From Candidatus Thermoplasmatota archaeon (GTDB lineage Archaea > Thermoplasmatota > E2 > DHVEG-1), in contig JAWABU010000011.1 in the NCBI GenBank assembly GCA_038884455.1, forward strand, positions 1 to 44,574: 44,574 nt of DNA, given 5' to 3'. The notes under the pieces are model-generated. The model saw nothing but the letters and a program-made list of their open reading frames with translations, did no database searches and had not been told where the DNA came from. The position numbers and the translations under genes were made by a program. Below are positions 16,801 through 35,875 of the stretch, piece after piece. Position 1 is the first letter of the stretch, and each line of letters opens with the position of its first letter.

Positions 16801-17533
16801 GTTCACCAGAAGGTTTCTTCAACGGCGGATCCATCACCCAGGCTTCTAACGTCAACGCACCGGTAAGATTCAAACTCGGACTCGAACCACAATCAACAAC
16901 ATCATCAATACCATCAAACTGATCAGCACCATTTAACACAGCACGACCAACAGTACCCTGAACAACACCACCGTACACAGCTCCATCATTATTATACTCT
17001 GTTGAATCGTAATGAAGACCGGAGTTTTCCTTGAGATGATGAACCATAGAATATCGATTACTCCACACATCACCAACTGCTTGTTGACTCTCACACTCAG
17101 GATTCCCATAATACATATACAAAACCGTATCAATCGAAGCGTAGAGAAGCTGTACTTTGACCCAGACAACAAGCTCACCAGTATTACCATCAAACTTTTC
17201 AATCTCATGCGGCTGCACGGTCCGATTCATCCAGTCAACAAAAACAATATCATCACCATCATCCTGAGCATACTGCGCAAGATCACTATCAGCACTCCGA
17301 TATAAAAGAACAGGAAAGTTTGTTTGTTCTTCAGCAACCTTGGTATGATCAATCACAATTTTCTTACAGTATGACCAATTACAATCCCACCAGGTTAATG
17401 GTTCACCAGCAACGTAGGAATATCCACTACGAGTATCTAAAAACTGTGTTCCAAAGAAATAGGTTCCCTGAAAACCTCCAAGAATTAGACAAATGACAAT
17501 TGCAACCGACAGAATAGCAAGTTTCTTATTCAC
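4871..17533 (-). CDS. Giant secreted subtilisin-family protein with LamG modules and three propellers
   Basis: 4,220 aa from GTG 17533. That start has GAGGAG 7 nt upstream; ATG 17554 has none. Order: signal peptide (LAILSVAIVICLILGG); DUF2341; first half of a LamG (about 165-240); I9-like propeptide (about 430-515); S8 subtilase with D543 (LLDTGVD), H572 (HGHGTMVAD), N660 (AAGNHG) and S717 (GTSLSAG), all present; beta-sandwich and FN3-like segments; seven SBBP-type repeats of about 57 aa (about 1155-1550); three Ig-plus-LamG modules (about 1560-2530); FN3-like; seven more SBBP repeats (about 2870-3275); a lone second LamG half (about 3275-3400); DUF2341 plus a full LamG (about 3400-3750); FN3; seven repeats of the type found in the neighbouring pilins (about 3845-4220). 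It should act outside the cell as protease and adhesin. N-glycosylation sequons recur in every SBBP blade. No C-terminal anchor or sorting signal is visible. It is coupled to the AbrB-like gene upstream. Confidence 0.85.
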   Translation of the reverse strand: MNKKLAILSVAIVICLILGGFQGTYFFGTQFLDTRSGYSYVAGEPLTWWDCNWSYCKKIVIDHTKVAEEQTNFPVLLYRSADSDLAQYAQDDGDDIVFVDWMNRTVQPHEIEKFDGNTGELVVWVKVQLLYASIDTVLYMYYGNPECESQQAVGDVWSNRYSMVHHLKENSGLHYDSTEYNNDGAVYGGVVQGTVGRAVLNGADQFDGIDDVVDCGSSPSLNLTGALTLEAWVMDPPLKKPSGERQRILQIVDKHEEHMQYSSEKTKIVSRTIAGSVNDTIVFACLHTPGIDIIDIMVDSHSVMNKKYQTNKIAFDDLPVELFRKKLPEPLVALPMVAYSKPFLLSSPTLRVDVVFSIQPWVHYVPGSRISYLVFSQDGIFDYESTTHFDTMVLFDWWNPFSWFFKWYTALFGTSSQDASSDTSEVISKISELQKQLQESHDGSLRVIIQLRNDTQDCSSDRESLLQSGFICTAEIPQKKIIAGIADSRFLESIKTVDSIQDIMVDSSFKVLAAPADRSVDLHDFTIPLIPYSGKNVTVCLLDTGVDSSLIPYAYGYDFVNHDDTPFDDHGHGTMVADVLRKIAPNVTLVVAKVLDSQGHGYMSDVLEGLQYCIDQNPDIILFSIGSTCGYTGFYDADPLSQLCTDAVDRGIFVVAAAGNHGSTAISIPACAQSVCSVSAVDQYGWIAEYANKNPTLDLFAPGDNIQTLHGVASGTSLSAGFVAGAAAVLLEAEPDLTPDLIRHRFRSTGMLHTCAYNESVTYLVPEINIENALLNRVTHDPIDYTWWSAQDAECNDTFFEPTATSTVSYYFSGYDAKKTTWKNPSYMCDTNENTCAQTNVNNDIEKLTANQCSGAGSSSIIRVQLRALANKTVTIGDASVKLQPIFSKGTGTNQTLTVNTSKSWTLYADITSDTNAPSPWTWSNVSDLDCNVYAGITHSSSYLCVWEVQIRVTYYYNVPPSQSNPIPGNESTNVPLNTNKLNITLTDADGDLIRYYISTRPNVGSYSNDGLNSTVSCPVSGLKPDTLYTWWVNTTDVSGSGTWTNRTYLFKTQPLSVLNCSTDATLYGSSYNITFTAYAHASSASTIVLLVANSTKRLDAASYTNRESCFATSANVTVSSYPQKITVTIPANENTTWYVKLCDNLSNTDDRLETWNKTYSGRTTGSDYAYSVVADRFGNIYVGGSGSNLNQTTSGTDAWLMKFNASTGVRLWNKTYHSGGTDIIYSVAVDSKGNVYTAGVGQKLNTTTSGIDWWIMKFNGTTGVRLWNKTYNGRTTGNDYAYAVTVDSSDNVYVAGYGSNLNTTTSAADIWIMKFHGTTGVRLWNKTYNGRTTGADSALSVLTDAQGYVYVAGYGANLNTTTSGSDWWIMKFDGSSGARLWNKTYNGRSTGSDQAYALALDVQKNLYITGYGQNLNTTSSSYDVWIMKFNTSTGVRLWNKTYNGRKTGVDYGYSVATDACGKVYVAGAGYNIHQTTSTYDWWLMRFNGTSGVREWNMSHSTGTGSDYLRSVTVDSKENVYLAGYGQNLNSSSTSYDWWIKKLSYLSDRYTVDALKPSVRFVDPTPANNTHLNRTWINISMATSDWNRHYSFVDFQQDLVLWMPMDTVNSTGSPRDLSTCGNHGTKYGDAQQTLNGYFGKAFRFDGSGDYIKRSAVIPTSTSFTYGGWIYWNRIGDPTNGDQDYPINQAGGEFGGPALIATSYDSGNTGELNCWPDENFEYFGAYPINKQTWYHVISVFNGTHLSLYVNGVFIASGERQTPFQSGDFYIGTSSLGGYLNGYVDDVVVFKRALAPSEIRSLYNASLYQYYHNFTGLTQGTYRFRGYDPDRGGNWNQTEEYNITIDTTKPSISFSSPTPDNNTYRNTSWVNISLSTTDTNQHYSFVDFNRSNILWMRMDDVQPPSSYLYADDTEDSAHKVGMWSGDLPNGGYDENWDTHIDCEDEENILYINTTVPLNANPDNVTLTVKVYLSEGTTIDVYVWNYGTNGYSYLATLATGWQNITIAGYSYVQNQLRIQYIFRGGAGSPSFYEDKITWNIIQGSLRDLSTYGHHGSPQGNAAQTISGFYGKAYSFDGTGDYINLNASGLAAVHNQFTISLWVKPTTIKDNNVLYAEWDTGSLDDWLFIMANDGYTEAALKGDNVGGYVSLIGDDINDGVWHHLVFSKNTTNHYFLYIDGTLAMSVSSNEPIPSCNRGCIGNLNVGSSNYYFTGSIDEVLVFNRALHPREILALYNASRYQQYSNITNLADRSYNYAGFAVDRAGNKNHTETRNLTIDTIKPSISFISPPTPPNGTTSNTYVNVSVSSSDSNQQYTFVNINQTCKLWMRMDDINQTGDPRDISSYGNHGRKYGNAAQTSLGYYGKAFRFDGDGDFIIIQNPSLLDVRTPKSFFAWIKTTSSSGTIICRAEGEEGFNPGDIKLYVQGTKVLFQYMEECFIESTITVNDGLWHHVGVTYNGTHFVLYVDGQVDGSVLWDVGETNQRNVTIGVHQWLNGNFEDYLSFFNGFIDEVLIFNRTLDNAEVKSLFQATLYQYQHNFTNLPYKNHTYLGYAVDRAGNINHTETRWRNISQIPIVLTNASTGVKETNATLHGYLVYDGGESCTVAFHVVPPGTTVGGQYPKHRGTPFSYNHGGLDYGTLYKFRAQANNSFYLDYGTYRFFLTKPQEPIVFRAVGYNQTCINLSWNRGSGANKTVIVRKLGSFPTSRTDGTLVYNGTGQWFNDTGLTQKTRYYYAAWSYTTWTFNNGTEMQTVQQWSSWPMNATAATSTLRLLNCSTDKTKYAYNGTVTFSAWVDADVGSTVVLIICDSIENLHTTGYNKYAASIAHSTDTVITKQPQKITATMTAQGNTTWYAKVVDTMGRSSYMKENTTAWNKTFSSTAAEIYDVASDTQGYLYAVGYGSKLVSSKSGADWWIMRFNTTTGVRDWNMTYSSSSEGGADYARSVAVDNANGYVYIVGDGVQLKSKTSGRDWWIIKLNRATGEEIWQKIFSSYTNDYEYARSVTVDSQGNIYVVGSGYNLNGSNSGLDVWIMRFNARTNDLDWNYTYHMRSSGIDFVGDEAYSVVTDTSDNVYVVGCGYGLNGSSSGRDWWIMKFHGTTGARLWNKTYTGKGTSSDDIAFSVTTDTQGHLYVGGYGSNVHSGASSQDWWLMRFNSTTGVREWNKTYSYGVQERIYSVVCDTAQNIYLGGISVYLNGSTWFDWWIQQLNASGYPDVWQWNKTIDGTTGVDYLSALAVDQKNNIYAAGTGQNLNSSSSGLDWWIKKFEHITGNFTTITSNKGVIRKKGMYGLEINAAGTTLYGLIGSSSPIVSATIDTNWHHVALTYDGSTARLYKDGVLVDSDTPFVAVGTTANHLKLGEFLSGKLDEVRISNTARSSAWINTTYLNTYDPESFAVFGEQLGVLSTWTFRKKITLNHSLISSTLSNFPILVYNSSDNDLKMYARSDGSDILFVPTSENWASGTWRNKLDHEIEKFNPTTGELVAWVKIPTLSATTDTEIYMYYNNTFCQNNYQNIAGVWSNNYAMVQHFNETTGSLLTDSTSNNNHGTKIGNASLTASGQIDGAYQFDGNGDYVTIPDSTSLDFYSSGQYTWSMWVYQTSFDVFNSVLSKGKNPCEGGKGYSIDIGLNYVSISNNNLEEEGGGEVGYYGPLSMNTWHFITITYSNGFIQIYVNDSLVHTGSGLTFNTEVTEPTYISKGYYFFTCDTYYFPGFIDELRISNEIRNESWIDTVYNNIHYLSDFLVFGSGKTINKPPVASNPIPTDGATNQNLNPRLSITVNDSNADALTIYFRTNASGSWATIGSNLSVYNGTYSQIPTTMSHEATKYYWSVNLTDGEDWSNHTYSFTTHALYGDIWDEVISSYEFDPAQGAAPCMVRIGTSQYYAIIYIADTADQSCQIITVRIWENNGTIRKSVVSSYTLDSEQEWYDTPYILHVTGDYYAVAYISGEPALKVATLRIWESNGTVQQSIVSSSILSTGEEDSFPSLVHIANDYYAVVYDSATGPCVKTFSIGQSNGTIYGTIISTFNPSGNRYSKMISIGNDLYVISTSGLVTTIRIWSNNGTIQQSPIDTYVYAIDAYDGQTPNIICISDDYHAIAYGFHQEGFKWPGKIITIKIWNNNGTIQHFNASWYLFEESNACLYPTIQPISNSVYGIAYRDAFYKGKIKTLLIYNNGTIEHSIIDTLEFDTSLGAYPSILYIGNNYYAIAYEGPDSDGWLKIIKITTI
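7720..8940 (-). repeat. Second block of seven SBBP-type propeller repeats
   Basis: Within the giant protein, seven units of about 58 residues start at WNKTFSS, WNMTYSS, WQKIFSS, WNYTYHM, WNKTYTG, WNKTYSY and WNKTIDG. Each continues with YSV-x-D, YVxGxG and WWIMKF. Seven such units are expected to close one seven-bladed propeller. Confidence 0.75.
12880..14070 (-). repeat. First block of seven SBBP-type propeller repeats
   Basis: Seven units of about 57 residues (about 170 bp) begin at WNKTYSG, WNKTYHS, WNKTYNG (four times) and WNMSHST. They are similar at the DNA level as well: the stretch encoding GVRLWNKTYNGR recurs almost unchanged near 13200, 13545 and 13715. This suggests fairly recent internal duplication or conversion. 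Confidence 0.8.
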
Positions 17534-17705
17534 AACAATTCTCCTCAACAACATCTAGCGTGTTTCGAAGTATCAATTCACCATCACTAAACGGTATTAT
17601 CTCAAGTGCATCTCCCTGCTTGATGTTATATGCTTCTGCAAGCTGCTTTGGAAGTGCAATGATAATGCTTCGACCAGAACGTCTCGTCCGTCGTACGAGC
17701 GACAC
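17526..17705 (-). CDS. Small AbrB/MazE-type DNA-binding protein (swapped-hairpin fold)
   Basis: 59 aa from GTG 17705, with a strong ribosome site AGGAGGGG (17713-17720) 7 nt ahead. The sequence RSIIIALPKQLAEAYNIKQGD followed by LEIIPFSDGELILRN is the AbrB/SpoVT/MazE swapped-hairpin DNA-binding fold, in which two chains form one operator-binding unit. No toxin partner is adjacent, so an antitoxin role is unlikely. The next gene is the 4,220-aa surface protein, whose preferred GTG start lies inside the tail of this gene's neighbourhood: its ribosome site (17541-17546) is within this reading frame and its start is 2 nt before this stop codon region. That arrangement couples translation of the regulator to the adhesin. 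A local or self-regulating repressor is the natural inference. Family call is confident; target is unknown. Confidence 0.75.
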   Translation of the reverse strand: MSLVRRTRRSGRSIIIALPKQLAEAYNIKQGDALEIIPFSDGELILRNTLDVVEENCCE

Positions 17706-17822: not shown

Positions 17823-18698
17823 TTATTGTATCCATCCAGGTGAGAATTGAATCCCAAGAATCGTTTTTTCAAAAGAGACCGTTGGTTTGGTTCCGTCAAA
17901 AGAAATTATAATCTTATTATTGTTTGGATCGGAAGCAACTGAAAAACGATAAAGATCAGTTGGTTGTCCATCTTTTTTAAATCCTGCTTTCGTTAAAATA
18001 TCGGTAACTACCTTTTCCCAAAGTTGATAATGCTCTGAAGTTATAGTCAGTGACGTTACAGTTGATAACTGCTCCGCAGCAATATGTTCTCGAAAATAAA
18101 TTTGGATCGGATACGTTCCATATCCTCCTAGCGAGCTAATTCCTCCCTCCGGGTTGAAATCAACACAATGAATCGAAATCTGTGGCTCAGGTGTTGTTGC
18201 CGCAGTGATGGTCGGTTTTGACAGCATGACTGACCCTTCAGATTGTTTCAGGATAATCGCAGTGTTTTCATAGGTATACTCTTGATTTAAAAAATATGCG
18301 TTATCTGAAGAATATCGGAAGGAACGAATCTGAGCACTTCTAGTTCCGCCACTAAAAGATATTTCTATTGTGTGGCTTTCTGACAATAATTGTATATGAC
18401 CATATGCTCTGCTTGAAGAAAGAAAACCAAGCTCCTTACTTCCAAGAGTGATAAAATTAGTTATCGGAATTGTTGATTGTGTTACCACAAGATTATCAAC
18501 AGCATATTTAAATTGACTGAACTGATTTGCAACTTGACTCATATGTTCTGCTTCTCGTTCTTGCATCCATCGAGGAACATAGATGGTTTGTATAATCGAG
18601 ATAACACCGATAACTAAACCAACAATCATAACGGCGACAATAATACCTGCAACACCATTTGTATTATCAAACAATGGTATGAACGCTTTTTTTTTCAT
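17823..18698 (-). CDS. Pilin-like membrane-anchored protein (DUF7289-like)
   Basis: 291 aa. The N-terminus has a short basic leader, then NTNGVAGIIVAVMIVGLVIG, a class III-like hydrophobic helix, and a polar helix (MQEREAEHMSQVANQFSQFK) that continues the stalk. The rest, from about residue 65, is predicted beta-rich with repeated SFSGGTRSAQIRSF-like strands. This layout (GV-x-hydrophobic helix, then QEREAEHxxxxxxQF) matches archaeal pilin-like families such as DUF7289. The role is probably a minor pilin or a membrane-held component of the pilus. The ribosome site GAGGTGAGGAG is 5 nt before the ATG. It is the last gene before the T-run and follows the 1,325-aa pilin by 49 nt, so it belongs to the pilus operon. 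The prepilin peptidase that would process it is not in the window. Confidence 0.7.
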   Translation of the reverse strand: MKKKAFIPLFDNTNGVAGIIVAVMIVGLVIGVISIIQTIYVPRWMQEREAEHMSQVANQFSQFKYAVDNLVVTQSTIPITNFITLGSKELGFLSSSRAYGHIQLLSESHTIEISFSGGTRSAQIRSFRYSSDNAYFLNQEYTYENTAIILKQSEGSVMLSKPTITAATTPEPQISIHCVDFNPEGGISSLGGYGTYPIQIYFREHIAAEQLSTVTSLTITSEHYQLWEKVVTDILTKAGFKKDGQPTDLYRFSVASDPNNNKIIISFDGTKPTVSFEKTILGIQFSPGWIQ

Positions 18699-18747: not shown

Positions 18748-21700
18748 TCAAGCATCTTTAAATAATGTTCGGATGACAACATCGTCAAGAATAGCATGAC
18801 ATCCTCCAATAACAAGGGGCTCAGAAGTCGTTACAATAGGAACGCCCATATACGAAGAGTTTTGTTTACTCTCCTCCTGATCTTCAATTCGAAGTGTCAA
18901 CGTTGCTGTTTGAAAATCATATCGAACTCGGATAAGATAAAAAACAATCAAAGGATTTACCGTGTAATTATTCCAACAAGTAATATTTTGTCCGCCTACG
19001 AAAATTGTTGCACGAATTCGTACAACATTATCGGTAACCTGACCGTACACAGCATACGCATTCTTTTTTACAATGAGACCATCAGGTTTATCTGAGTGAG
19101 CAATCGGTAGTTTAACGATTTTTACATAACCATTAAAATAAGAATATCCTCCATAAAAAATTGCATACGTTGAATCATGAACCTGAACAATTGAAAACGG
19201 AGTTGGATACCCATCAAACGGTGAATTTGGATCAAACTCGGAAAACGAATCAAACGTATCTACGATATTTCCTGTTGTTTGATCGATGCGAATCGTTTTT
19301 ATTTTTCCACTCCCTGCACGATAAAAAACAGCATATATCCTTTCTCTCAAGTGGAAAATTTGTGGATAAGAAAATCCACCTTCAAATACAAATTGGTCAA
19401 TCGGAGTTGTCGAGATAAACTTTCCAGTAGTAGTGTTCAGAGCATACACAGTCATCAGACCAGTATGTGGATACTCCCTCCTGGTGTATATTAATGTAAT
19501 AAAAGATTGCTCATCATGGGCTCCTACTTGGTTTATAGTAAAGAAATTAATTAATGATAGTTGCGAAATAGATAAGAAGTCAATAAATGTAATTGTATTA
19601 CTCGTAACTGTAAATGTTCGTAAACGGAGTACATAATCCTCATACACTGAACCAAGAACAAAAAGATTGGTATCAGCTATGCGAATTATCGATGGATAAT
19701 ACAAGCTTGAAGGAGTGCCAAATTCAGTTGGTGTTCCATGAAGATTTACTGCTCCTTCATCAGTAAATGAAACTAGTTGAATATATCCAACTGAACCTGA
19801 TATTCTATACACTAAAGGATATAGTATCTGAGATCCTTGTTGAATACTTGGACCAAGAAAAGGATACATGCCAAAATAGGAAAAATCAAAACTTTGTTTC
19901 AAGGTAATTACGATTCCATCATTCGAAATGGTAAATGTTTTGATCCATAAATTACCATTAGCACCTCGGAAGACCACAGCAAACAAATGATTCGAACCAA
20001 CCGCACGAATATAATTAAAATTTGGAGTTTCAAAGATATTTAAAAGATAAGAACTACTCGGAGATGCTAATCTTCCCAGGGAGATAACATAATTGGTGAT
20101 AATTTGATTAGATATCACTCCAGAGTTAAATATTCTGATGGTTTTAATATACGCATCATGGTTTAATCCTTGGTGAAATAGCGCATAGATACCTGAACCA
20201 TCATCCTCTTTTAGTTTATACATAGCATTATTGTCATAAACACAAAATAAACCAAGTGTATGGACACCACGAACCGGATACGTATCATCAATCATCCCCC
20301 CAGAACTAAACTGAACTGTTTTAAGTACACCATCATAATTTTTTTGCCGATATACAACACCAAACAAAGAATTACTGATAAGAAAAATTTGAGGTTCATA
20401 CGGATCAGCATTACTATTAACTCGCAGTTGAATAATGATACTATCTTTTATTGAAGGAGTAATAACGCCGGTATTAACATTTATTTCAATTGTTTTAATT
20501 ATACAACAATATGTATCTGAAGACCCTGAAGGACCACGATAGACAATAGCGTAGTAACCCATATCCCCAGATCGTTCAAGTTCGATAATATCAGGTTCAA
20601 AAAAATGATTGACAGCTGGTTCGAATGTATAACTAGTAATAAGTTGATAATTAGTATCAGTATATCGAAATGTTCTTATTTTTCCAACAATCTGCGAAGA
20701 ATCCTCTGAAGGTCCACCATAAACAACAGCAATAAGAGGTTCAGAACCATCAGCAACTTTAATAATCTCAGGCGACTGACAATTTCCAGCATCTAATGAA
20801 TTGTCGCGTAGACTAATTGAATGCACATGAAACTGATTTGGATTTGTCTTTTTTATTTTTATTGTTCGAAATGCCCCATCACCATGCATAAAAGCAACAG
20901 TAAAATAATAAAAATTTGCATCCTCTTTTATTTTTAATACTTCTGGTTGAATCGCTTTTCCTTCAGCAAGTGGATTACTCGAATAATTATGAGAAAAGTT
21001 ACCGATCGTACTCATGAAAGTTAGTGAACCACTACTAGTTACCCGGAATGTCTCAACAATACCTAGATAATTTACTCCAAGTGAATAGACTACAACAAAA
21101 TAACGACTTTCATCAGAGATACTATCAATGAAATCAATATCTGGATGATAACAACGGGTATGCGCTGATCGAACAATACCTGGGTTTCCTGGTGGTATTT
21201 GAATAAAACCAGTATTCGTTATATAAAGTGTTCTCAAGCCAATACCGTTTCCCCCGCCTCGACTCCAAACAAGAACAAATACATTATTTGGGCCTCCAGA
21301 TCGAATAATCTTTGGATTAAAACAACCAACACCCGACTGATTCTGAAAAACAAAAAAATCAATAAAACAACCATTCGTCGTATTGACTATACTCCCATCA
21401 TTTCGTATCTTCACAGTTACAAGATAACCATGGGGAGAAGCATTCTGATTTCGACTTACAATAGCATAGATTTTCCCATCACCTGTATCAGAAACAAAAG
21501 CAACATCAGCTTCATAACAATCATAGTATCTTGGTCCAAAACTTGATAAACCACCAGCAATATTCGAAACGATCGATCCGACGTTCTTATCAGCATATTC
21601 TAATGGCTTCATTTTAAAATCAATTTGAAGATTCTTGGTCAAATCCAATGAATTACTATCAGGAACTTGGACATAATCATCGATTCCATCAAAACTCAAA

Positions 21701-22722
21701 GCATAATCAGTTGAATATGAATTTTCTCGTTGAACCCATGAGGGACCGATCATACCTGGTTGAAGTGTACCATTATTATAGTTTCTTGTTTGGTCATAAG
21801 CAATACGACCAGTTCCTTCATCAAACTTCCAATGGCCAACTATTTCACTTTTTGTGACAAAAATAAGACTATCCCCATATTTAATATATGGTTGATTGTT
21901 ATAGGTATACGCTATTGCTGCACGAAAACGATACGTGGTTTCAGAATCCAATCCAATAATTTCGAAACCAAAATTTGCAGCAACTGGGCGGTTGTCATCA
22001 ATATTTGCCGACATCACGTAATTGTGTTGTGGTGGATTTGTAGGATTTTGTGGATCTAAAGGCAACAAGGTATGATCAATCGAGCAATATTGAATCATAA
22101 CATAACGAGCAGTAAATCGACTAAAATCAATAAAATTATAATATAAAGAAACCGATGCTGTGGTCAGATCAGTTGTAGGATCAACATGTGTTAGAACATA
22201 GGGAACATCCCCTTTTTCACCGGTTTGTAAAGTCACATCAAGAATAATCCGATGTGTTGAAATATCCTCAATGCGACCTACAACCTCCATGTTTCCAAGA
22301 GAAACACTTTGAGTATAGGTTACCTCGTCACCAATCTTCCAACGATGCTCTGACCCGCTAAAAGCAAAACCATCTGTAGATTCACCAAGAATATACGAGT
22401 GTGTCTCTCCAGCAATGATCACCGATACTTTAATTTTTGAAACAAGTTCATCTCCCCCAAGATGACGAAAAACAACAGAATTACCTTCAATAGAACCAAC
22501 AAGAGTTACCTGTTGGGTTAGCTCATGAGTATAACTTGTCGATACCTGCGTTACCAAAAGATACAATGATGAAAACAATGCGATAGATATCGACAGCAAT
22601 AAAATAGTTCCAAGTATCTCAGAGACAGCATTATTCTTCTTGAAAAAAACAGATGCTTTTTGTTGTATAAAACATAAAAAATAATGCTTCTTTCTAGGAT
22701 AAAAAAACCTATGGATTGCCAT
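18748..22722 (-). CDS. Giant pilin-like protein with split LamG holding 14 propeller repeats
   Basis: About 1,324 aa from ATG 22722 (1,331 from ATG 22743; both overlap the gene upstream; GGTGG lies about 10 nt before 22722). A long basic leader ends in KKNNAVSEILGTILLLSISI, an archaeal type IV pilin N-terminus (cleavage expected near the Ala). Then a pilin-like beta domain (to about 190), an FN3-like domain (about 190-300) and a LamG first half (GHWKFDEGTG, YALSFDGIDDYVQVPD). From about 400 to 1,218 come 14 repeats of the pattern P-x-I-x-x-I, YAIVY, G-x-IKT-x-x-I-x(3)-G-x-I. The last 110 residues are the LamG second half (LIVKKNAYAVYG to VIGGCHAILDDVVI). Fourteen repeats suit two seven-bladed propellers. 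It is predicted to be exported by the ATPase/T2SF machine of the same operon and held in or on a pilus. Ligand unknown. Confidence 0.8.
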   Translation of the reverse strand: MAIHRFFYPRKKHYFLCFIQQKASVFFKKNNAVSEILGTILLLSISIALFSSLYLLVTQVSTSYTHELTQQVTLVGSIEGNSVVFRHLGGDELVSKIKVSVIIAGETHSYILGESTDGFAFSGSEHRWKIGDEVTYTQSVSLGNMEVVGRIEDISTHRIILDVTLQTGEKGDVPYVLTHVDPTTDLTTASVSLYYNFIDFSRFTARYVMIQYCSIDHTLLPLDPQNPTNPPQHNYVMSANIDDNRPVAANFGFEIIGLDSETTYRFRAAIAYTYNNQPYIKYGDSLIFVTKSEIVGHWKFDEGTGRIAYDQTRNYNNGTLQPGMIGPSWVQRENSYSTDYALSFDGIDDYVQVPDSNSLDLTKNLQIDFKMKPLEYADKNVGSIVSNIAGGLSSFGPRYYDCYEADVAFVSDTGDGKIYAIVSRNQNASPHGYLVTVKIRNDGSIVNTTNGCFIDFFVFQNQSGVGCFNPKIIRSGGPNNVFVLVWSRGGGNGIGLRTLYITNTGFIQIPPGNPGIVRSAHTRCYHPDIDFIDSISDESRYFVVVYSLGVNYLGIVETFRVTSSGSLTFMSTIGNFSHNYSSNPLAEGKAIQPEVLKIKEDANFYYFTVAFMHGDGAFRTIKIKKTNPNQFHVHSISLRDNSLDAGNCQSPEIIKVADGSEPLIAVVYGGPSEDSSQIVGKIRTFRYTDTNYQLITSYTFEPAVNHFFEPDIIELERSGDMGYYAIVYRGPSGSSDTYCCIIKTIEINVNTGVITPSIKDSIIIQLRVNSNADPYEPQIFLISNSLFGVVYRQKNYDGVLKTVQFSSGGMIDDTYPVRGVHTLGLFCVYDNNAMYKLKEDDGSGIYALFHQGLNHDAYIKTIRIFNSGVISNQIITNYVISLGRLASPSSSYLLNIFETPNFNYIRAVGSNHLFAVVFRGANGNLWIKTFTISNDGIVITLKQSFDFSYFGMYPFLGPSIQQGSQILYPLVYRISGSVGYIQLVSFTDEGAVNLHGTPTEFGTPSSLYYPSIIRIADTNLFVLGSVYEDYVLRLRTFTVTSNTITFIDFLSISQLSLINFFTINQVGAHDEQSFITLIYTRREYPHTGLMTVYALNTTTGKFISTTPIDQFVFEGGFSYPQIFHLRERIYAVFYRAGSGKIKTIRIDQTTGNIVDTFDSFSEFDPNSPFDGYPTPFSIVQVHDSTYAIFYGGYSYFNGYVKIVKLPIAHSDKPDGLIVKKNAYAVYGQVTDNVVRIRATIFVGGQNITCWNNYTVNPLIVFYLIRVRYDFQTATLTLRIEDQEESKQNSSYMGVPIVTTSEPLVIGGCHAILDDVVIRTLFKDA

Positions 22723-25700
22723 ACCGTTCATCCCACCATTCATTAAATTTTGAACTATGATACGCTATATCAAAAACGTTATCATAAATTTCAAATTCAT
22801 CATAAAAAGCATTAAAGCCAGACGATCCACAATAATTTCTGCCTATGTAAAAGTTCACTTCTTTAATAACCTCAAGTTCAATCCTTTTCAGTTGTAAAAA
22901 ACCTCCTGGGAGAGATGGAAGAGAATAAAAAAATGGATTTTGATTCTTATCAAAATAATTCGACAACGTCATAAAACCAGATCCACCCGATTTATATCGG
23001 AAAACTATGTAATTCCAACAATCTGAGACGAGAGGAACAGAAACCGTCAATGTGCGATCGCTCGTATCAATTATTGATGCATACACAACATGATCGTACA
23101 CAGAAATATTGAAAATGTTATACTCTTGTGAATCATATCCAATAATAGTACACATTCTTTTTTCCTGATTAAGAGAAATCAAATGAACAACAGCATCTTC
23201 TTCTGGACCTTGTGCTACCAAAAGCAATTTATACGGAGATTCTGACAAATCAACAGGTAAGAACCGAGCAAATAAATAATTTTTTTGTATACTTTTATAA
23301 GCATCAATGCTACTGACATCTCCTTTTTGTAGATTGATACGAACTGTTGCTAATTGTAAAAAACCATTACCGAATGGAGAAGTATGAAACATGAATGTAT
23401 CCTCAAAAACACGAACAAGTGAAATATAACTATTACTTTCAAAGAACTGTATTGTGCTTAAAGAAATTGCCGATCCATCCTCAGAAATTGTGAACACAGC
23501 AAAACCACTGAATCCTGGAGCCTCAAGATGTGTATACGTAAGTACGTAGATTTCTCCTTCATGAATAATTGTTGGAAAAGCAAGAGAACCAAAGAGCGAA
23601 AAAATCTCAATAGGTCGTTCAATGATTCTTTGAGGGGCCCCTTCAAAAAAAGAATAAGTAATAACAGACGAACCGAATACAAAAGCAAAAATATTAGTAA
23701 CTTGAGAAATACGAATAACATCACAACCATACTGTGGACAAGGCCCAACATTTGTAATAACATCATAATACTCTGGATCGTTTTGTATAGTTATGGTACC
23801 TCCATCGGTAATTTGGCATGATTGAACAACAAAAACAGTTTGTCCAGTATACAAACCTCCATAACATACTATATAACTCTGGTTTTCAAGTGGATACATT
23901 TTCGGGTAATATACTTTAGTAATACCAGAAACTGAAGGAACAAACAGCGTAGGCCCATCAAGTAGTGGATGTGTAATTATTCCATTGTCATTGATTTGTA
24001 CAGTAACAATATACCCTTGAGAAGAGGGCGATCCTGGATTTGTTTGATAGACAATTGCATATACTGTGGTATGAACTCGAAGAATCCTCGGATTAAAACA
24101 ATCATCAGCAAATTTAAAAACGTCAATGAATACACCTGGCTCGACACCAGTTCCACCAACAGGTCTACCAATCATTGAAAAAATTTTGTTGACAGCAAAT
24201 GTCTTTATGTATCCTCCGTCGTTCTCCCCTCGACAGACAACCGCATAATAATAGTAATTTGTATCGTGAGAAAGAAGAATTGTATCAGGGGTGAAAAAAT
24301 TTTGACAACCAACATATGCTGAATCAATTAGTGAAATAGTAACACTTGTTTCAGATATGACAGAAATTGTTAATGTTTTAATAATCCCATTATTATCATC
24401 GTTTGAATATGATGAAGAAAGTTTCTTACAAAACATCGCATATAACGGTTGAGGAGTTTCATAGTTTGTATATACAAAAACAGGCCAGCCGATTACTGAT
24501 TGTTCAACGATAAAATTGTCTCTAACAAGACGAATTCCGTTTAGAGAATAATGATTCATAGTAACATTGATTATATCAAGATATGCGTAATTATTAACCC
24601 CTCGAAAGGATACCGCAAAAAAAGCAGAAGATCCAATGATTTGAGATAGCCTTACAATCCGGAATTCACTAAATTGAGAACCTTCAATATCAATAGATGG
24701 ATATGTTTTTGGACCTAGACTACTATCAATAAAATCATCTCGTGGAGGACTATCAATAACACCAGTATCTGGAATTTCAACGATTACCACCCGCCCGATA
24801 CTTGCATGTTCATCATCAAGACCTGCATAGTACACAATAGCAAACAAACCAGTATCAGACACCTTAATGATCTGAGGAGTTACACCATTTAAATCATCAA
24901 ATAAACAAGCATTCAACGAAGAAGTAACGATAGCTCCTGTTGTCGGATTGATGTTAAAGGAACGGAGCCGACCATCATGATCAAAATCCTCGTAGACAAC
25001 AACAAAGGTATCGGAATCAACCATAGCAATATCAGCAGCATAAACAATTCCTTCATTGTCAGCATCTCCTACTGGAACAGTAGTATACATATTAACATGA
25101 CTTATTGATGTGATACTACTCCCAGTTTGAGAGATACTAAACGTTTTAACAATTCCCCTGTAATCTGATGTTGCATACACACAGGCAAAAAAATAATTAC
25201 CTCCAGAAGTACTACAATACACAATATCTGGAACAAAACACACGCTATCTTGACCAGAAAAAACATATTCAGAAATTGGAGTGTCTGAAATATCACCAGC
25301 TGCAGAAATTTGAAATGTTTTTATTCTTCCAATATCACTTGGCCCAGTATAAATAACCCCAAAAATATCACCAGAAATATGGAACATTTTCGGATTCTGA
25401 CATGAACCTAATTCAAAAATAAATACATCAAAATATGTTGTCGTACTATCTTTTGATAAAACCTGACCAGAGAAATCTGTTTTTTTTACCTTAAGGGTTA
25501 CGATAGCACCTTTCTTTTCTGTTGTTGAACCGGTTCGACCAGCCAACGCAAGGGTAATATTTTCTGACTCTGTTCCAACATAAATACAATCTGTTTCATA
25601 AAAACCGATATACGAATTACCAAATGTAGAAAAAGAATTAAAAACATTGTCTGGAACATTACAAAATTTACCATCAGCATGCTCACCAGGTTTAACCCAA

Positions 25701-26815
25701 CCTTCACACGTCATTTGTTCAACAGGGTTTATCAAACCCTGTGATAAATCAATCGATATATAATCATCATATCCATCCAGCTCAAGCGCTGAACCTCCTT
25801 TGACCGTATTGTCAGGTACGGTCTGCCATTGAGGCCGAAGAAACATAGGATTGTCAGGATATAATTCACCATGATGTTGATGTGGGCCAGAATCAAACGC
25901 AGTAAGCCCTTGTCCTTCATCAAACTTCCAATTTGCAAGAAGATTTGTTAGTGTCGAGAAACTTTGAATCGAAGAACTCAACAATTCAAGGGTTTGTTCA
26001 ACTCCTTGATCATCACGATAGGTATACTTGATTTGTGCTTGGTAGTGATATCGTGTTCCCATATCAAGATCACCTACAGTCTCATCATAAAAATCCTGGA
26101 TGGCATCGGTGGAATACCAAGAGGTATAGAATTTATTGTTTGGATCCGCGCTTTTCCAATATATAAACCGAATGTTACGACCACTAAATTCTTGAAATTT
26201 AAAATCATACGACATATGAAATATTGCTGATGTCTGAGCAATGCTCGTTGCAGGAAGCGTGGTAACAACCGGCCCAACAGCAGATAATCCTTCCTGGAGA
26301 ATACTTTTATATATCACTGCATTCACCGAAGGATTAAAAATCGTAACTACAATTTCACTTGCAGCTATCTGATACGAGGGTAATCCAAAAGTCGTAGACA
26401 GAGAGGAGTCAAAAGAAAAAGATTCACCGATATCAAACATATTATTCTGATTTACATCGTTTGTACCTAAAAATATTTGTAACGATTGTGTTTTTGTATG
26501 TTCACCTACCGCAATTGTTACAATGCAATCTCCAGTAATTGATTCACCACCATAATGATGAATATAGATGACAGGAATGTCAACGGTTCCAAGAAGACTT
26601 GTTTTTGGAATACTTTGAGGAAAATAAACTGAAAGAACAGAAAAAACAACTACAGACAATACTATAAAAAGTGCCACGCCAATCGTAACAAGCAACATGG
26701 TTCCAACAACTTCAGAAACCCCTCTAGTATCATACCGGAAATCTTTTTGAAACAAACGACGATCCGATTGATACTTCTTCTGTAGAAGAGCTAGTTGTCG
26801 CCATTCTTTTTTCAT
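22709..26815 (-). CDS. Giant pilin-like protein with split LamG holding 14 repeats (second paralogue)
   Basis: 1,368 aa. Leader of about 30 residues rich in K/R, then DTRGVSEVVGTMLLVTIGVA, a textbook archaeal pilin N-terminus with the signal-peptidase site before or after the Gly. Beta-sandwich pilin domain to about 185, FN3-like domain to about 290, LamG first half at about 293-380 (LANWKFDEGQG, ALELDGYDDYISID, CEGWVKPG), 14 repeats to about 1,205 (for example NPRILRVHTTVYAIVYQ, then GYIVTVQINDNGII), and the LamG second half at the end (YASIIDTSDRTLTVSV, CWNYIVFRY, FYIGRNYCG, AFYDEFEIYD). GGTGAT before the ATG is complementary to the 16S tail. It starts 20 nt after the 838-aa paralogue and its end overlaps the next gene, so the three are one operon. 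Surface role and fold are inferred; target molecule unknown. Confidence 0.8.
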   Translation of the reverse strand: MKKEWRQLALLQKKYQSDRRLFQKDFRYDTRGVSEVVGTMLLVTIGVALFIVLSVVVFSVLSVYFPQSIPKTSLLGTVDIPVIYIHHYGGESITGDCIVTIAVGEHTKTQSLQIFLGTNDVNQNNMFDIGESFSFDSSLSTTFGLPSYQIAASEIVVTIFNPSVNAVIYKSILQEGLSAVGPVVTTLPATSIAQTSAIFHMSYDFKFQEFSGRNIRFIYWKSADPNNKFYTSWYSTDAIQDFYDETVGDLDMGTRYHYQAQIKYTYRDDQGVEQTLELLSSSIQSFSTLTNLLANWKFDEGQGLTAFDSGPHQHHGELYPDNPMFLRPQWQTVPDNTVKGGSALELDGYDDYISIDLSQGLINPVEQMTCEGWVKPGEHADGKFCNVPDNVFNSFSTFGNSYIGFYETDCIYVGTESENITLALAGRTGSTTEKKGAIVTLKVKKTDFSGQVLSKDSTTTYFDVFIFELGSCQNPKMFHISGDIFGVIYTGPSDIGRIKTFQISAAGDISDTPISEYVFSGQDSVCFVPDIVYCSTSGGNYFFACVYATSDYRGIVKTFSISQTGSSITSISHVNMYTTVPVGDADNEGIVYAADIAMVDSDTFVVVYEDFDHDGRLRSFNINPTTGAIVTSSLNACLFDDLNGVTPQIIKVSDTGLFAIVYYAGLDDEHASIGRVVIVEIPDTGVIDSPPRDDFIDSSLGPKTYPSIDIEGSQFSEFRIVRLSQIIGSSAFFAVSFRGVNNYAYLDIINVTMNHYSLNGIRLVRDNFIVEQSVIGWPVFVYTNYETPQPLYAMFCKKLSSSYSNDDNNGIIKTLTISVISETSVTISLIDSAYVGCQNFFTPDTILLSHDTNYYYYAVVCRGENDGGYIKTFAVNKIFSMIGRPVGGTGVEPGVFIDVFKFADDCFNPRILRVHTTVYAIVYQTNPGSPSSQGYIVTVQINDNGIITHPLLDGPTLFVPSVSGITKVYYPKMYPLENQSYIVCYGGLYTGQTVFVVQSCQITDGGTITIQNDPEYYDVITNVGPCPQYGCDVIRISQVTNIFAFVFGSSVITYSFFEGAPQRIIERPIEIFSLFGSLAFPTIIHEGEIYVLTYTHLEAPGFSGFAVFTISEDGSAISLSTIQFFESNSYISLVRVFEDTFMFHTSPFGNGFLQLATVRINLQKGDVSSIDAYKSIQKNYLFARFLPVDLSESPYKLLLVAQGPEEDAVVHLISLNQEKRMCTIIGYDSQEYNIFNISVYDHVVYASIIDTSDRTLTVSVPLVSDCWNYIVFRYKSGGSGFMTLSNYFDKNQNPFFYSLPSLPGGFLQLKRIELEVIKEVNFYIGRNYCGSSGFNAFYDEFEIYDNVFDIAYHSSKFNEWWDERYGNP

Positions 26816-26835
26816 AGTACATCACCGATACGTTT

Positions 26836-29352
26836 TTAATAATTATTTTTTCCAATTTTTAAATAATCGATATATCCATAGAAAGGACCCATAAAAATAT
26901 CAACAGGTACAACAACCATCGTACCGTGACCTTGTTTTGTAAATATATTACTACCAACTTGAAAACGCATCTGATTATTCATATATTCTAATGATATCTC
27001 TACCCAACCAGATGGCTTATCTGCAACAAGTTCATATTTCACACCACCCATTGTACATATTTCTGCGATGAGAAACGGGCCATTTGCTTTCACTGCAAAA
27101 ACAGCATTCTTTTCAATGATTACTTGATATCGTATGTCGCACGAAACACGAATTGTCGAAAGAAAACCTTTCACAGTACTAAATAGACCGCCGAAACACA
27201 TAATCGCAGTATCAGACGACATTGGGATGAGTTTTACAAAACAACCAGGATCAGTATACGTATATCTATCAAGAAGGCAAGGTTGAATATACCCATTTTG
27301 ATTAATTTTAATGGTACTTACCGTAGAAGTATATGATGGAAGTACAACATACGCAAGAGTATAGAGATCATTTCTCATCGAGATAATCTTCATATCTTGA
27401 GCATAAAAAGGACAGATGTATGAATCAATCGTATTTATAGAAAAAGCACCTCGTTCTTGGGAGATATATATGGTTTGAACAAAACTATATCGATCCATTT
27501 GAGCCCATGCTTGACTATAACAGATTGCAAAAATACCTGAAGTACTATTTATCGCGATAATATCTGGTTTAAATCCTAATTGATCATATTGAAATGAAGC
27601 ATTGGCAACAGAATACAATCCAATCTTACCGGTATACGGATTGATATAAAAAATATTAATATTCAGTTGACGTATCGGTACTGTTGAATCACCTCCATAA
27701 ATCACCGCGTAGTAGTTATCGGTTACATGAATAATGTCAACTTCAGTACAATACGGATACGGCAACTTTCTTGTATCGATTTGAGTCACACCAGAAGGCG
27801 AAATCGTTAAAGTAATAATACCACCAGTCTCAATCGGTTTTACTGGATTGTAATGACCGCCAAAACATACAGCATAGATATCTCTTTCAATATGGATCAT
27901 TGTTGGTTTCCATCCGTAATACGGACCAAGAACTACTTGCTTTGTATCAATCAATGAGATACTTCCTGTCGTTGGGTTGATCAGTAATCGTAGATATGCC
28001 CATTGGGGAGTCGCAAAATCACTACTCCCCGCAGCAATAACAATATACATATCATTTGAAATATAATATATACATGGATTTAGATAATAGATATTTTTAG
28101 TAATGGTTTTCGTATCTCTAATCCCACCAATAGAACCATCGGTATTTACCTGTACCGTAAAGATATACAGATTTGATGTTGTACCATCAGTGCAAACGAT
28201 GACAACATCATTAGTAGACCCATAAACAGGAATCATATCTGGAGAATAGCACACATTGTTAAAAAAAGAACCCCCGAAAAGTTTCTGGTCAATACGTTGA
28301 ATTTTTCCAAAAAAATCATTCGATGAGGCTTCCTCAAATTTCGCTCTAAAATTTACCTTAAACGAATCAGTAACATCAAATTTATGATGATATGGAATAA
28401 CCACTCGATCATCGACATCTTCATCAAAAAAAACCGCATCATATCCATCCTCTTGTTGATAACTTACATCATACGGAGCTTGAAACGAAGAACCATGAAC
28501 TTTTGGTTCCATTCCATCGTGTAATAAAGTTTCTTCGGTCGTGAATTGATAGTCTGCTCGTGGAGTAGTATAGGTCCAAAAAATCACAGTCGTACTATGT
28601 TTGGTTATCGTTGTTCCAAGAGAATTGATATATTTCAGATGTGCTGAAACACTAATTTGTGTACCCCTTGGAAGACTGCTCAGCTCAGTAGAAATCGTGT
28701 TCTTAATCCCGTTTTTCAAAACATATTTTGTATATTCAGTGGTTGCAACGGTATACGTAAAAGACAAAGCATCTTCTCCGGTATACGAAGAAAAAAAATC
28801 ATAGTTGATAAAATCATAAAAAAGACTTACCGTCGCACGCCATGTCCCATCCACATCCTCAGTAATCGTATTCTCAACAACAGGATTCATAACAACATAT
28901 GGACTTTCCTGTAGCACCTTGTCAAGAATAACAAGATTATTCTCACGATCCACAATTTTTACATGTACATACGCATCAGGTAATTCTGGCTGCCCCTGAT
29001 ACGTTATCGATTGACCAATCGACCACTGCATAGAAAACGTCTCTCCAACCGTCTTTTTTGTAACAACCTCTGAACCATCTGGATTTTCAGCCGAGCCAGG
29101 ATACCGAATTGTATAGACAATCTCTACAGAGGGGCTCAGCGCTTCACCACCCTTATGCAACAAGACAATCTTATCATCTTCAACAGCACCAACGATATTA
29201 ACAAAACGGCGTTCAGGACCCTGCATATTCGCCCAAGGATTTACAATTACTAATGTTAGAACAGAAAAAACAGATACTGCAAAACTAATCATCAGTAACG
29301 TTCCAAGTGTCTCAGACACAGCATCAGTAGTTTGTAACTTTTTCAGTATCAT
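26836..29352 (-). CDS. Large pilin-like protein with split LamG holding seven repeats (third paralogue)
   Basis: 838 aa. Short leader MILKKLQTT, then DAVSETLGTLLMISFAVSVF, an archaeal pilin N-terminus. Pilin beta domain to about 170, FN3-like domain to about 265, LamG first half about 267-350 (YDAVFFDEDVDDRVVIPYH, SFKVNFRAKF), seven repeats about 367-740 (for example KPTMIHIERDIYAVCFGG and GWKP, YCTEV, GFKPD unit starts), LamG second half 740-838 (AVFAVKANG, WVEISLEYMNNQMRFQVG, DIFMGPFYGYIDYLKIG). Same architecture as the two larger neighbours but with one propeller instead of two. GAGGTG sits about 9 nt before the ATG. It is the first pilin after the secretion genes, 24 nt from the T2SF gene. 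It may be the ancestral form from which the 14-repeat proteins arose by doubling, or a distinct tip subunit. Confidence 0.8.
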   Translation of the reverse strand: MILKKLQTTDAVSETLGTLLMISFAVSVFSVLTLVIVNPWANMQGPERRFVNIVGAVEDDKIVLLHKGGEALSPSVEIVYTIRYPGSAENPDGSEVVTKKTVGETFSMQWSIGQSITYQGQPELPDAYVHVKIVDRENNLVILDKVLQESPYVVMNPVVENTITEDVDGTWRATVSLFYDFINYDFFSSYTGEDALSFTYTVATTEYTKYVLKNGIKNTISTELSSLPRGTQISVSAHLKYINSLGTTITKHSTTVIFWTYTTPRADYQFTTEETLLHDGMEPKVHGSSFQAPYDVSYQQEDGYDAVFFDEDVDDRVVIPYHHKFDVTDSFKVNFRAKFEEASSNDFFGKIQRIDQKLFGGSFFNNVCYSPDMIPVYGSTNDVVIVCTDGTTSNLYIFTVQVNTDGSIGGIRDTKTITKNIYYLNPCIYYISNDMYIVIAAGSSDFATPQWAYLRLLINPTTGSISLIDTKQVVLGPYYGWKPTMIHIERDIYAVCFGGHYNPVKPIETGGIITLTISPSGVTQIDTRKLPYPYCTEVDIIHVTDNYYAVIYGGDSTVPIRQLNINIFYINPYTGKIGLYSVANASFQYDQLGFKPDIIAINSTSGIFAICYSQAWAQMDRYSFVQTIYISQERGAFSINTIDSYICPFYAQDMKIISMRNDLYTLAYVVLPSYTSTVSTIKINQNGYIQPCLLDRYTYTDPGCFVKLIPMSSDTAIMCFGGLFSTVKGFLSTIRVSCDIRYQVIIEKNAVFAVKANGPFLIAEICTMGGVKYELVADKPSGWVEISLEYMNNQMRFQVGSNIFTKQGHGTMVVVPVDIFMGPFYGYIDYLKIGKNNY

Positions 29353-29376: not shown

Positions 29377-30300
29377 TTACATTCCTAACAGCAATTTAAA
29401 CGATAACCATGATATAATAATCATCACAAAAATATGTTTCACACTCGATGTTAATTTTCCATCTTCAAAAACACCAGCAACAACACCAGAACCAATACCC
29501 TGCATCAATGTTGCATAATAAAAAATACTTGTAATCTCCTGAATCGAGACGCGAGGACCACCACCCCCCATAACACCCTGCATCCCTGAAGAGCCTTCAC
29601 CGACCATCGCGGGAATAAAACTCGTACACAAAATCAAAATAATCGCAAGAAACACAAACATACCAACATAAATCACAACAACATAGGAGGCCATACTTGT
29701 TTTCCGCTCAGATTCCAACAGTTTAATCTCACGAGCATCCTTTGCAGCAAGATCAAGCACATCAGCAACATTCCCACCACTTTTACTTGCCTCAATGATC
29801 AACGAAATTGTCCGACGAATCGATTTCGTATACACCCTGCGAGAAAAATCAACAAGCGCATCAGTAACATTACTCCCCCAAGATACCTGCTGTGAAATCT
29901 TCTGAATCTCTGGTGTAAGAATTCCATAATTACCTTTCGAGGCAAACAAAATAGCCTTGGTGAATGTCATACCAGCACGACGTGACTCAGCAAGATCACG
30001 GACAAAATCAGGAAAAATAGCATCAATTTTCGAAATCCGTCGCATCCGCATTGCTTCATACATGCCAAAAATCCCAGTACCTGAAAGCATCGCCAGAACA
30101 ATATAATCCCCAGGATTTAAAAAACCTGGAAAAATCCGAACCAACGTCAAAACCGCTAAGAGAAGAAATACAACAATACAAACAATGGTGACAACAATCA
30201 CGATTAACCGAGTCTTCTGACCAGTCAAAATAAGATTTTGGAAAAAACCAATCTTTTTTTGAGTATCTGGAACAGATTTTTTTTCTTTTTTCTCAAACAT
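29377..30300 (-). CDS. T2SF-domain membrane platform protein (TadC/FlaJ-like)
   Basis: 307 aa. Cytoplasmic start, two membrane segments (about 33-80), a cytoplasmic T2SF domain (about 95-210; FVRDLAESRRAGMTFTKAI, VSWGSNVTDALVDF, ISLIIEASKSGGNVADVL) and two or more segments towards the end (YVVVIYVGMFVFLAIILIL and MIIISWLSFKLLLGM). Proteins of this family form the inner-membrane platform on which the assembly ATPase works and through which pilins are raised. It has a single T2SF domain, as in Tad systems, where archaellum FlaJ has two in one chain. It begins 6 nt after the other T2SF gene, so the pair probably forms a heteromeric platform. The GGG/GSSGMQGVMGGGGP loop near residue 245 is unusually Gly-rich. 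Confidence 0.88.
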   Translation of the reverse strand: MFEKKEKKSVPDTQKKIGFFQNLILTGQKTRLIVIVVTIVCIVVFLLLAVLTLVRIFPGFLNPGDYIVLAMLSGTGIFGMYEAMRMRRISKIDAIFPDFVRDLAESRRAGMTFTKAILFASKGNYGILTPEIQKISQQVSWGSNVTDALVDFSRRVYTKSIRRTISLIIEASKSGGNVADVLDLAAKDAREIKLLESERKTSMASYVVVIYVGMFVFLAIILILCTSFIPAMVGEGSSGMQGVMGGGGPRVSIQEITSIFYYATLMQGIGSGVVAGVFEDGKLTSSVKHIFVMIIISWLSFKLLLGM

Positions 30301-30306
30301 CGATGC

Positions 30307-31185
30307 TTACGCCCCCTGACACATACCTTTAATCACCACAGCAAAACCCATATGAACCATAGGAACGACCATGAAAATTAAAATATACAAAAACATCGCA
30401 TTAAAATCCCCGCTGATAATCATCATCAATGGAATCACAATCAACAACAATAAGATACCTGCAACTGCAGCAGTCACATAGCTTTCAGCCATAATTCCCA
30501 AGGTTTCAAGCAATTGTTTCTGTGCCTGACGATTCTCCCACATATACTGGTTTGCCTTTGCTAAAAAATATGATCGAAGTGAACCACCGGACGTGACAGT
30601 AACTACCATTCCCTGTAAAAATTCTTTAAATTTCTGGGATGGTGTCCGTTCAAGATTCTTTTTAATTGCTGTAAGCAAATCTACTCCAAGTAATGTCACA
30701 TCACGATAAATCCATGCCGCCTCCTTATTGATCTCTCCGTAAATATCCTGCTTTGAAAGACTTTTAAAAATTTCAGTTGGTGTTACCCCTGCTGATGCCA
30801 TCGCTGAGATGAAATTACAAGCATATGCTAAATGAACGTTAATATTTTTACTCCGAGCTTTTGCTCTACTTGCGGGTATCTTTAATAAGAGTGCATATGT
30901 TAGAGTACCAAAGACACCGGGAAGACTTAGTAACACTCCAACAATCATCAAAGAGAGATTCACATGAGCAACAACAACAAGAATCGCAAGAAAAACAGAC
31001 ATTCCAATCAAACTTCCGATCATAACCAGAATCGATGCAAACATCACATACGAAAGATACGCATCTGTTCGAATCTCCATATGCGCAGATTGCAACATTT
31101 TATCAAGTTTCTCAGAAACATTTTTTCGGGCAAAACCACCAAACCACTGATAACAAACCCTCTGATATTTAGTTAACGTCATCAT
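30307..31185 (-). CDS. T2SF-domain membrane platform protein (TadB/FlaJ-like)
   Basis: 292 aa with membrane segments at about 45-90 and at the C-terminus (about 215-285) and a cytoplasmic T2SF domain between (YACNFISAMASAGVTPTEIF, KKNLERTPSQKFKEFLQGM, TSGGSLRSYF). It is the partner of the next T2SF protein. The first ATG (31185) overlaps the stop of the ATPase gene in ATGA; a second ATG follows directly, and GGAGG lies 4-8 nt ahead of the two, so either may be used. The overlap means translation is probably coupled to the ATPase, giving balanced amounts of motor and platform. Which of the two T2SF proteins corresponds to TadB or TadC cannot be settled by eye. Confidence 0.87.
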   Translation of the reverse strand: MMTLTKYQRVCYQWFGGFARKNVSEKLDKMLQSAHMEIRTDAYLSYVMFASILVMIGSLIGMSVFLAILVVVAHVNLSLMIVGVLLSLPGVFGTLTYALLLKIPASRAKARSKNINVHLAYACNFISAMASAGVTPTEIFKSLSKQDIYGEINKEAAWIYRDVTLLGVDLLTAIKKNLERTPSQKFKEFLQGMVVTVTSGGSLRSYFLAKANQYMWENRQAQKQLLETLGIMAESYVTAAVAGILLLLIVIPLMMIISGDFNAMFLYILIFMVVPMVHMGFAVVIKGMCQGA

Positions 31186-35815: not shown

Positions 35816-35875
35816 TGCATCCCTCCTTTCTTCACACATTCCACGTTTGCATCCCATCCCATTTAATTATCTTTA

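Follow-up and report, generated by a model that had tools for sequence, protein, structure and literature searches.

Three adjacent genes of a Candidatus Thermoplasmatota archaeon encode giant pilins, here called GP1, GP2 and GP3, in which the evidence supports one LamG domain interrupted by an insert predicted to form one or two seven-bladed propellers. The genes lie in a stretch of 44,574 nucleotides (GenBank assembly GCA_038884455.1, contig JAWABU010000011.1), referred to below as the window, and their open reading frames (ORFs) of 838, 1368 and 1331 amino acids (aa), respectively, are all on the minus strand. Each protein begins with a pilin N-terminus, which is followed by a probable Fn3/Ig-like domain and then by a LamG whose first half precedes an array of repeats and whose second half lies at the C-terminus. 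With a probability of about 0.6, GP1–GP3 are large adhesive modular minor pilins displayed by an archaeal type IV pilus that uses two ATPases and two platform proteins. A first-pass annotation of the window, made from the sequence alone, had placed the three proteins at positions 18748–29352, and the ORFs agree with it; it overlooked the Fn3/Ig-like domain and the rule that the arrays hold 7, 14 and 14 blades. The inserts measure 393, 837 and 828 aa, slightly more than the 375–815 residues given at that stage. The pilins and their parts are listed here, with the strand in parentheses and the supporting evidence, which includes hidden Markov models (HMMs), AlphaFold2 (AF2) models and independent E-values (iE).

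26836–29352 (−): giant pilin GP1, 838 aa, one predicted propeller; orthologues at the same operon position in seven other genomes
28903–29352 (−): GP1 pilin module, residues 1–150; Pilin_N 19.8 bits, AF2 helix at residues 10–37
28576–28902 (−): GP1 tentative Fn3/Ig-like domain, residues 151–259; relatives' profile against PDB Fn3 chains, AF2 beta strands
28318–28575 (−): GP1 LamG first half (degenerate), residues 260–345; alignment to orthologues whose N half matches the LamG HMM
27139–28317 (−): GP1 insert, residues 346–738, 7 blades, one predicted propeller; HMM, orthologue mapping, AF2 and Foldseek
26839–27138 (−): GP1 LamG second half, residues 739–838; alignment to orthologues whose C half matches the LamG HMM
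22709–26815 (−): giant pilin GP2, 1368 aa, two predicted propellers; ORF, Pilin_N 31.0 bits
25670–25945 (−): GP2 LamG first half, residues 291–382; LamG HMM iE 2.7e-8, PF13385 33.4 bits when spliced
23159–25669 (−): GP2 insert, residues 383–1219, 14 blades (7+7); 14/14 by orthologue mapping, 9–10 seen directly by HMM
22712–23158 (−): GP2 LamG second half, residues 1220–1368; weak PF13385 match (E 0.008, profile 118–144), spliced test
18748–22743 (−): giant pilin GP3, 1331 aa, two predicted propellers; ORF, Pilin_N 25.7 bits
21583–21846 (−): GP3 LamG first half, residues 300–387; LamG HMM iE 1.0e-11, model positions 4–80 of 211
19099–21582 (−): GP3 insert, residues 388–1215, 14 blades (7+7); 12 seen directly, 14 mapped through orthologues, one of them weakly
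18751–19098 (−): GP3 LamG second half, residues 1216–1331; orthologue C halves match the LamG HMM with iE down to 7e-10

The earlier claim that LamG halves flank the array is borne out by complementary profile matches, by in silico excision of the insert and by an uninterrupted homologue. A LamG HMM, trained on ten intact domains only, finds an N piece (model positions ~3–80) before the array and a C piece (~103–205) after it in ~30 proteins, and one piece only, either N or C, in several more. The LamG of GP1 is too diverged for Pfam or for this HMM and was placed by alignment to seven orthologues, in which the halves are mostly visible; the second half of GP3 itself has no detectable match to the HMM. 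No match to PF13385 (Laminin_G_3) reaches the cut-off in native GP1, GP2 or GP3. Removal of the insert restores PF13385 above the cut-off in three of the five proteins tried: a spliced protein of genome G022 scores 56.2 bits over profile positions 1–150 (its halves alone give 17.6 and 34.9 bits), a spliced orthologue of GP2 scores 41.7 bits over the same positions, and spliced GP2 of the window scores 33.4 bits, as two stretches. The homologue with an empty site, a 466-aa protein of genome G031 (L100:4665–6065), consists of pilin, Fn3 and uninterrupted LamG. In blastp, most of its alignments to split relatives stop at residue 323, the point at which the inserts start, and several of these relatives have C-terminal tails that align to its residues 334–463.

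The insert is built from a 52-aa repeat, a four-stranded blade with the consensus PDIIHVSGDIYAIVYRGSSNDGYLKTVKISNNGTITDSVIDTLEFDTSNCRE (iterated HMM), which no Pfam or NCBIfam model covers; matches to NCBIfam TafC lie far under the cut-off and touch the LamG region only. The HMM sees 6–7, 9–10 and 12 blades directly in GP1, GP2 and GP3, and mapping through orthologues gives 7, 14 and 14. Among all proteins examined, and across several distinct architectures, complete arrays hold 7, 14 or 21 blades, a count that allows for one blade being missed or for one partial blade too many; the last blade of every array is partial in the HMM, and arrays shorter than a multiple of seven (7n) belong to proteins that are truncated, broken or diverged in sequence. 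Seven blades are found in GP1 and in pilins of 713–757 aa with LamG, 14 in GP2, GP3 and the single giant pilins of other genera described below, and 21 in a 2028-aa non-pilin. Recent doubling of a 7-blade block was rejected as the source of the 14-blade proteins: blade identity has no peak at a separation of seven. Since this periodicity is lacking, the 7n rule looks structural and not the outcome of recent block duplication; it probably reflects ring closure. An artefact of DNA-level repeats was also rejected, as Tandem Repeats Finder reports no more than two repeats in this region, both small and imperfect.

These counts in sevens, an AF2 model and its Foldseek matches uphold the view that the repeats form propellers. 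AF2 was applied to GP1 and to the head of an orthologue, with alignments of 8 rows only. In the orthologue head (mean predicted local distance difference test, pLDDT, 70.7; predicted template modelling score, pTM, 0.66) the seven blades are mostly at pLDDT 75–94 and folded as a propeller. Nearly all of the top 50 Foldseek matches to this model are propeller proteins or propeller-containing complexes, several of them seven-bladed (template modelling score TMt 0.72 for the PLL2 lectin, 0.66 for PHL and 0.64 for Sec12); head profiles compared with PDB sequences found no propeller relative. The models and counts support one predicted seven-bladed propeller in GP1 and two (7+7) in each of GP2 and GP3. 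The matches also include sialidases, GH43 enzymes and a rhamnose-glucuronate lyase, and such enzymes often combine a propeller with a ConA-like domain; the propellers could accordingly be imagined as glycosidase- or lyase-like enzymes that digest extracellular polymers from the pili, with LamG as a carbohydrate-binding module. That function is quite improbable, given that the matches are at fold level only (8–13% identity), that Pfam detects no glycosidase family, that the blades are alike along the array with no candidate active-site blade identified, and that the seven-bladed non-enzymatic lectins fit equally well or better.

At the N-terminus, Pilin_N (PF07790, cut-off 25.2 bits) is matched above the cut-off by GP2 (31.0 bits) and GP3 (25.7 bits, at residue 38) and just below it by GP1 (19.8 bits), whose N-terminus aligns with those of its orthologues and carries a prepilin-like site, TTDA/VSETLGT, judged by eye. 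With pilus machinery adjacent, the archaeal pilin N-terminus proposed in the first pass holds. Several traits of archaeal type IV pilins are present: a class III signal with a conserved hydrophobic helix, ATPase and platform genes in the operon, and a prepilin peptidase in the genome. The Fn3/Ig-like domain between pilin and LamG is probable, as a profile of relatives matches PDB Fn3 chains at the equivalent place (E 0.0015). Among Pfam models of pilins, PF07790 is the sole one to match the giant-pilin N-termini, and the bacterial pilin motif IPR012902 is absent. LamG and blades follow the pilin module and the C-terminal domain is not pilus-specific, as in modular pilins. The giant pilins are the archaeal counterpart of these proteins, outside the IPR012902 survey set.

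Two T2SSE ATPases and two T2SSF platform proteins (Pfam) are encoded directly upstream of GP1–GP3, and a DUF7289 protein whose N-terminal helix resembles that of a pilin is encoded downstream of GP3, all on the same strand.

33002–35857 (−): T2SSE/PilB3-type pilus assembly ATPase 1, 951 aa (PF00437, 116 bits), the conserved first gene of the operon
31182–33005 (−): T2SSE/PilB3-type ATPase 2, 607 aa, with a zinc-ribbon-like N-terminal segment (PF00437, 110 bits)
30307–31185 (−): pilus platform protein a (T2SSF), 292 aa (PF00482, 62 bits)
29377–30300 (−): pilus platform protein b (T2SSF), 307 aa (PF00482, 76 bits)
17823–18698 (−): DUF7289 protein, 291 aa (PF23960, 28.7 bits)

ATPase 2 is 67–69% identical between genera. 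Wherever the operon is complete, a DUF7289 homologue (~281–309 aa) is placed after the giant pilin or pilins, and it is probably a constant minor pilin or adaptor. The source genome (1.70 Mb, 98% complete) contains the prepilin peptidase and further platform genes, and encodes ordinary-size pilins of 168 and 175 aa elsewhere. In the region 22644–22743 (minus strand), GP3 and GP2 overlap by 35 bp, and a long leader that contains a 1.9-copy 32-bp repeat precedes the GP3 pilin site; the GP3 start codon is uncertain.

Searches of 390 genomes of the phylum and of 145 relatives place the giant pilins mainly in one Thermoplasmata family; the named records of relatives are metagenome-assembled genomes labelled Thermoplasmata archaeon or Euryarchaeota archaeon, two of them from lake sediment according to isolate names. 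The search of archaeal genomes that had been suggested for this architecture finds the nested arrangement in ~30 proteins of many genera, and this recurrence, together with complete arrays quantised in sevens, argues that the arrangement is not due to chance. The order ATPase–ATPase–platform–platform–GP1 (~835 aa)–GP2 (~1300 aa)–GP3 (~1290 aa)–DUF7289 is found in seven other genomes, where the ends of contigs cut off upstream genes in some cases, and in two of the seven GP2 or GP3 is split into two pieces. In other genera, a single giant pilin of ~1180 aa replaces GP1–GP3 between the platform genes and DUF7289. Between the window and three relatives, identity is 59–70% for the machine, ~40% for DUF7289 and 28–30% for the giant pilins; this faster divergence of the pilins than of the machine favours the reading as adhesive minor pilins. 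The shared gene order and architecture support the plan of pilin stalk, sandwich and propeller as a fixed design kept through the family; the first-pass annotation had seen it in the three paralogues, and it extends well beyond the window.

Several observations weigh against the adhesive minor-pilin reading. The faster divergence of the giant pilins is about equal over all domains and not in the head alone. The AF2 model of GP1 is weak (mean pLDDT 63, pTM 0.56), and spliced GP1 and GP3 give no Pfam LamG match. Structure prediction, the check proposed in the first pass, yielded the propeller and a folded C segment of LamG in the orthologue and left the N half unfolded in both models, at pLDDT ~25 in the orthologue. 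The models do not show how LamG packs, probably because the alignments were so shallow; on the sequence evidence, both halves would pack into one sandwich. A folded C segment beside an unfolded N segment, and a GP1 without any detectable LamG, would suit two separate domains, namely a short N-terminal beta domain and an independent C-terminal jelly roll with the propellers merely between them. Such a division is highly improbable: in many proteins the two pieces cover complementary stretches of a single LamG profile without repeating any of it, excision restores the full-length match in relatives, and the empty-site homologue has an intact LamG at that place.

A further point on the same side is that ORFs and Pfam reveal no major pilin of ordinary size in the giant-pilin operon, as would be expected if the giant proteins used the pilin signal and the machine for export and anchoring only and built either a short pseudopilus or a surface coat anchored in the membrane. 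Thermoplasmatales have no S-layer and possess an unordered protein layer instead. Cuniculiplasma and Oxyplasma have such a layer (PMC12448462), to which large propeller proteins could belong, and the same blades are carried by giant non-pilin surface proteins (2028 aa in genome G084 and 4227 aa in the window itself). A coat is nevertheless rather unlikely, because the operon is conserved and dedicated and encodes two ATPases as well as two platform proteins; moreover, ordinary pilins are encoded elsewhere in the genome, and it is normal in archaeal pili for the major pilin to be encoded at a distance (PMC12448462).

The interpretation of GP1–GP3 as adhesive minor pilins draws on known systems. 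PilC of Streptococcus sanguinis combines a pilin with Ig-like and ConA-like lectin domains; its lectin binds glycans, and models place the protein at the tip of the pilus (PMC9934059). It shares with the giant pilins the order pilin–Ig/Fn3-like–ConA/LamG, its large size for a pilin and its place among several minor pilins of a locus, but it is bacterial, of 52.8 kDa, with an uninterrupted lectin, no propeller and the bacterial signature motif in place of PF07790. In S. sanguinis PilB and other modular pilins, as in the giant pilins, a functional domain is grafted onto a pilin; the accessible part of the survey lists PF13385 among common grafts, proposes a tip location and cites an extreme case of 860 residues, but those pilins are bacterial and the architectures named there include no nested propeller (PMC8179133). 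The PilC/PilY1 tip adhesins also bear a propeller and are thought to act at the pilus tip; in contrast, they are non-pilins with another propeller family, presented by a separate minor-pilin complex, and Pfam searches of the giant pilins give no match to IPR008707, the PilC/PilY1 propeller. A similar machine is CdiP of Cuniculiplasma divulgatum, also of the Thermoplasmatota, with two ATPase and two platform genes and with terminal hooks of unreported composition; unlike in the operon described here, its pilin genes are far from the machinery (PMC12448462). Candidatus Mancarchaeum (Mia14) has LamG proteins by type IV pili loci and propeller surface proteins in the same genome, but the accessible part of the report describes no single-chain pilin–LamG–propeller fusion (PMC5498576). 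PLL/PHL lectins share the seven-bladed fold, and bacterial sialidases combine a propeller with a lectin domain; no sequence relation was found to either. The Vibrio cholerae sialidase has the opposite nesting to that of the giant pilins, with the lectin set into the propeller. In the literature searched, we found neither archaeal modular pilins with a nested propeller nor archaeal pilins with ConA-like lectins, and Makarova 2016 mentions neither propellers nor LamG. The first-pass annotation knew of no described pilus with such heads; the novelty lies only in the nesting of a propeller and in the giant form in archaea, whereas lectin-bearing modular pilins, LamG included, are already known in bacteria (PMC8179133, PMC9934059).

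The domain order shared with S. sanguinis PilC and the resemblance of the machine to CdiP suggest that GP1–GP3 would be adhesive minor pilins located at the pilus tip or close to it. The N-terminal helix would be cleaved by prepilin peptidase and would pack into, or cap, the pilus made by the ATPases and platform proteins of the operon, and GP1–GP3 would together form a three-pilin cap at its tip. A rigid head would follow, with the Fn3/Ig-like domain as a spacer before the LamG sandwich. The chain would leave LamG after the strand ending ‘EAWVKP’, pass through one (GP1) or two (GP2 and GP3) propellers and return to finish the sandwich. With both ends of the insert anchored in the sandwich, the propellers would be held without a floppy linker, which would fit a tip under pulling force. 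The likeliest targets of the heads would be glycans or proteins, either of surfaces or of partner cells. A bolder extension, unlikely as it stands, is that GP1–GP3 make a fixed three-subunit cap with five propellers, which forms the molecular basis of grappling tips such as the terminal hooks of Thermoplasmatota, and that LamG is a general archaeal socket in which heads are nested, with propellers in one loop and jelly rolls in another (as in a 932-aa pilin).

Related designs occur in other proteins. In the 932-aa giant pilin, from a second pilus operon of the source genome (L031, G000:C1 6089–8887), the LamG is interrupted in another loop, at profile position 126 of 151, by a jelly-roll-like insert of ~465 aa. 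In the 2028-aa non-pilin (L050, G084, 6773–12859) 21 blades interrupt a LamG that in turn sits between beta-helix segments, a double nesting. Pilins of ~500 aa carry 7 blades directly, with no LamG (L046 and L101–L104; G022, G006, G037, G033 and G026), and in giant pilins of ~1720 aa (L051 and L052; G079, G066 and others) PKD-like and beta-helix-like sequence replaces the propellers. Within the window, the 4227-aa secreted protein (4871–17554, minus strand) comprises DUF2341, a subtilase domain (residues 541–755), five intact LamG domains, SBBP-type propeller repeats and, at its C-terminus, a 7-blade array of the same blade family as the giant pilins; a DDE transposase gene (3343–4716, minus strand) lies past the end of its gene.

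The modular-pilin idea is thus extended to Archaea, by a family with a pilus operon dedicated to pilins of 840–1370 aa. The same proteins offer a case of domain insertion with an uninterrupted relative for comparison, and a structure-based counting rule (7n) for the propeller blades of an unnamed repeat family. They make it possible to test directly what archaeal pilus tips consist of and what they do.

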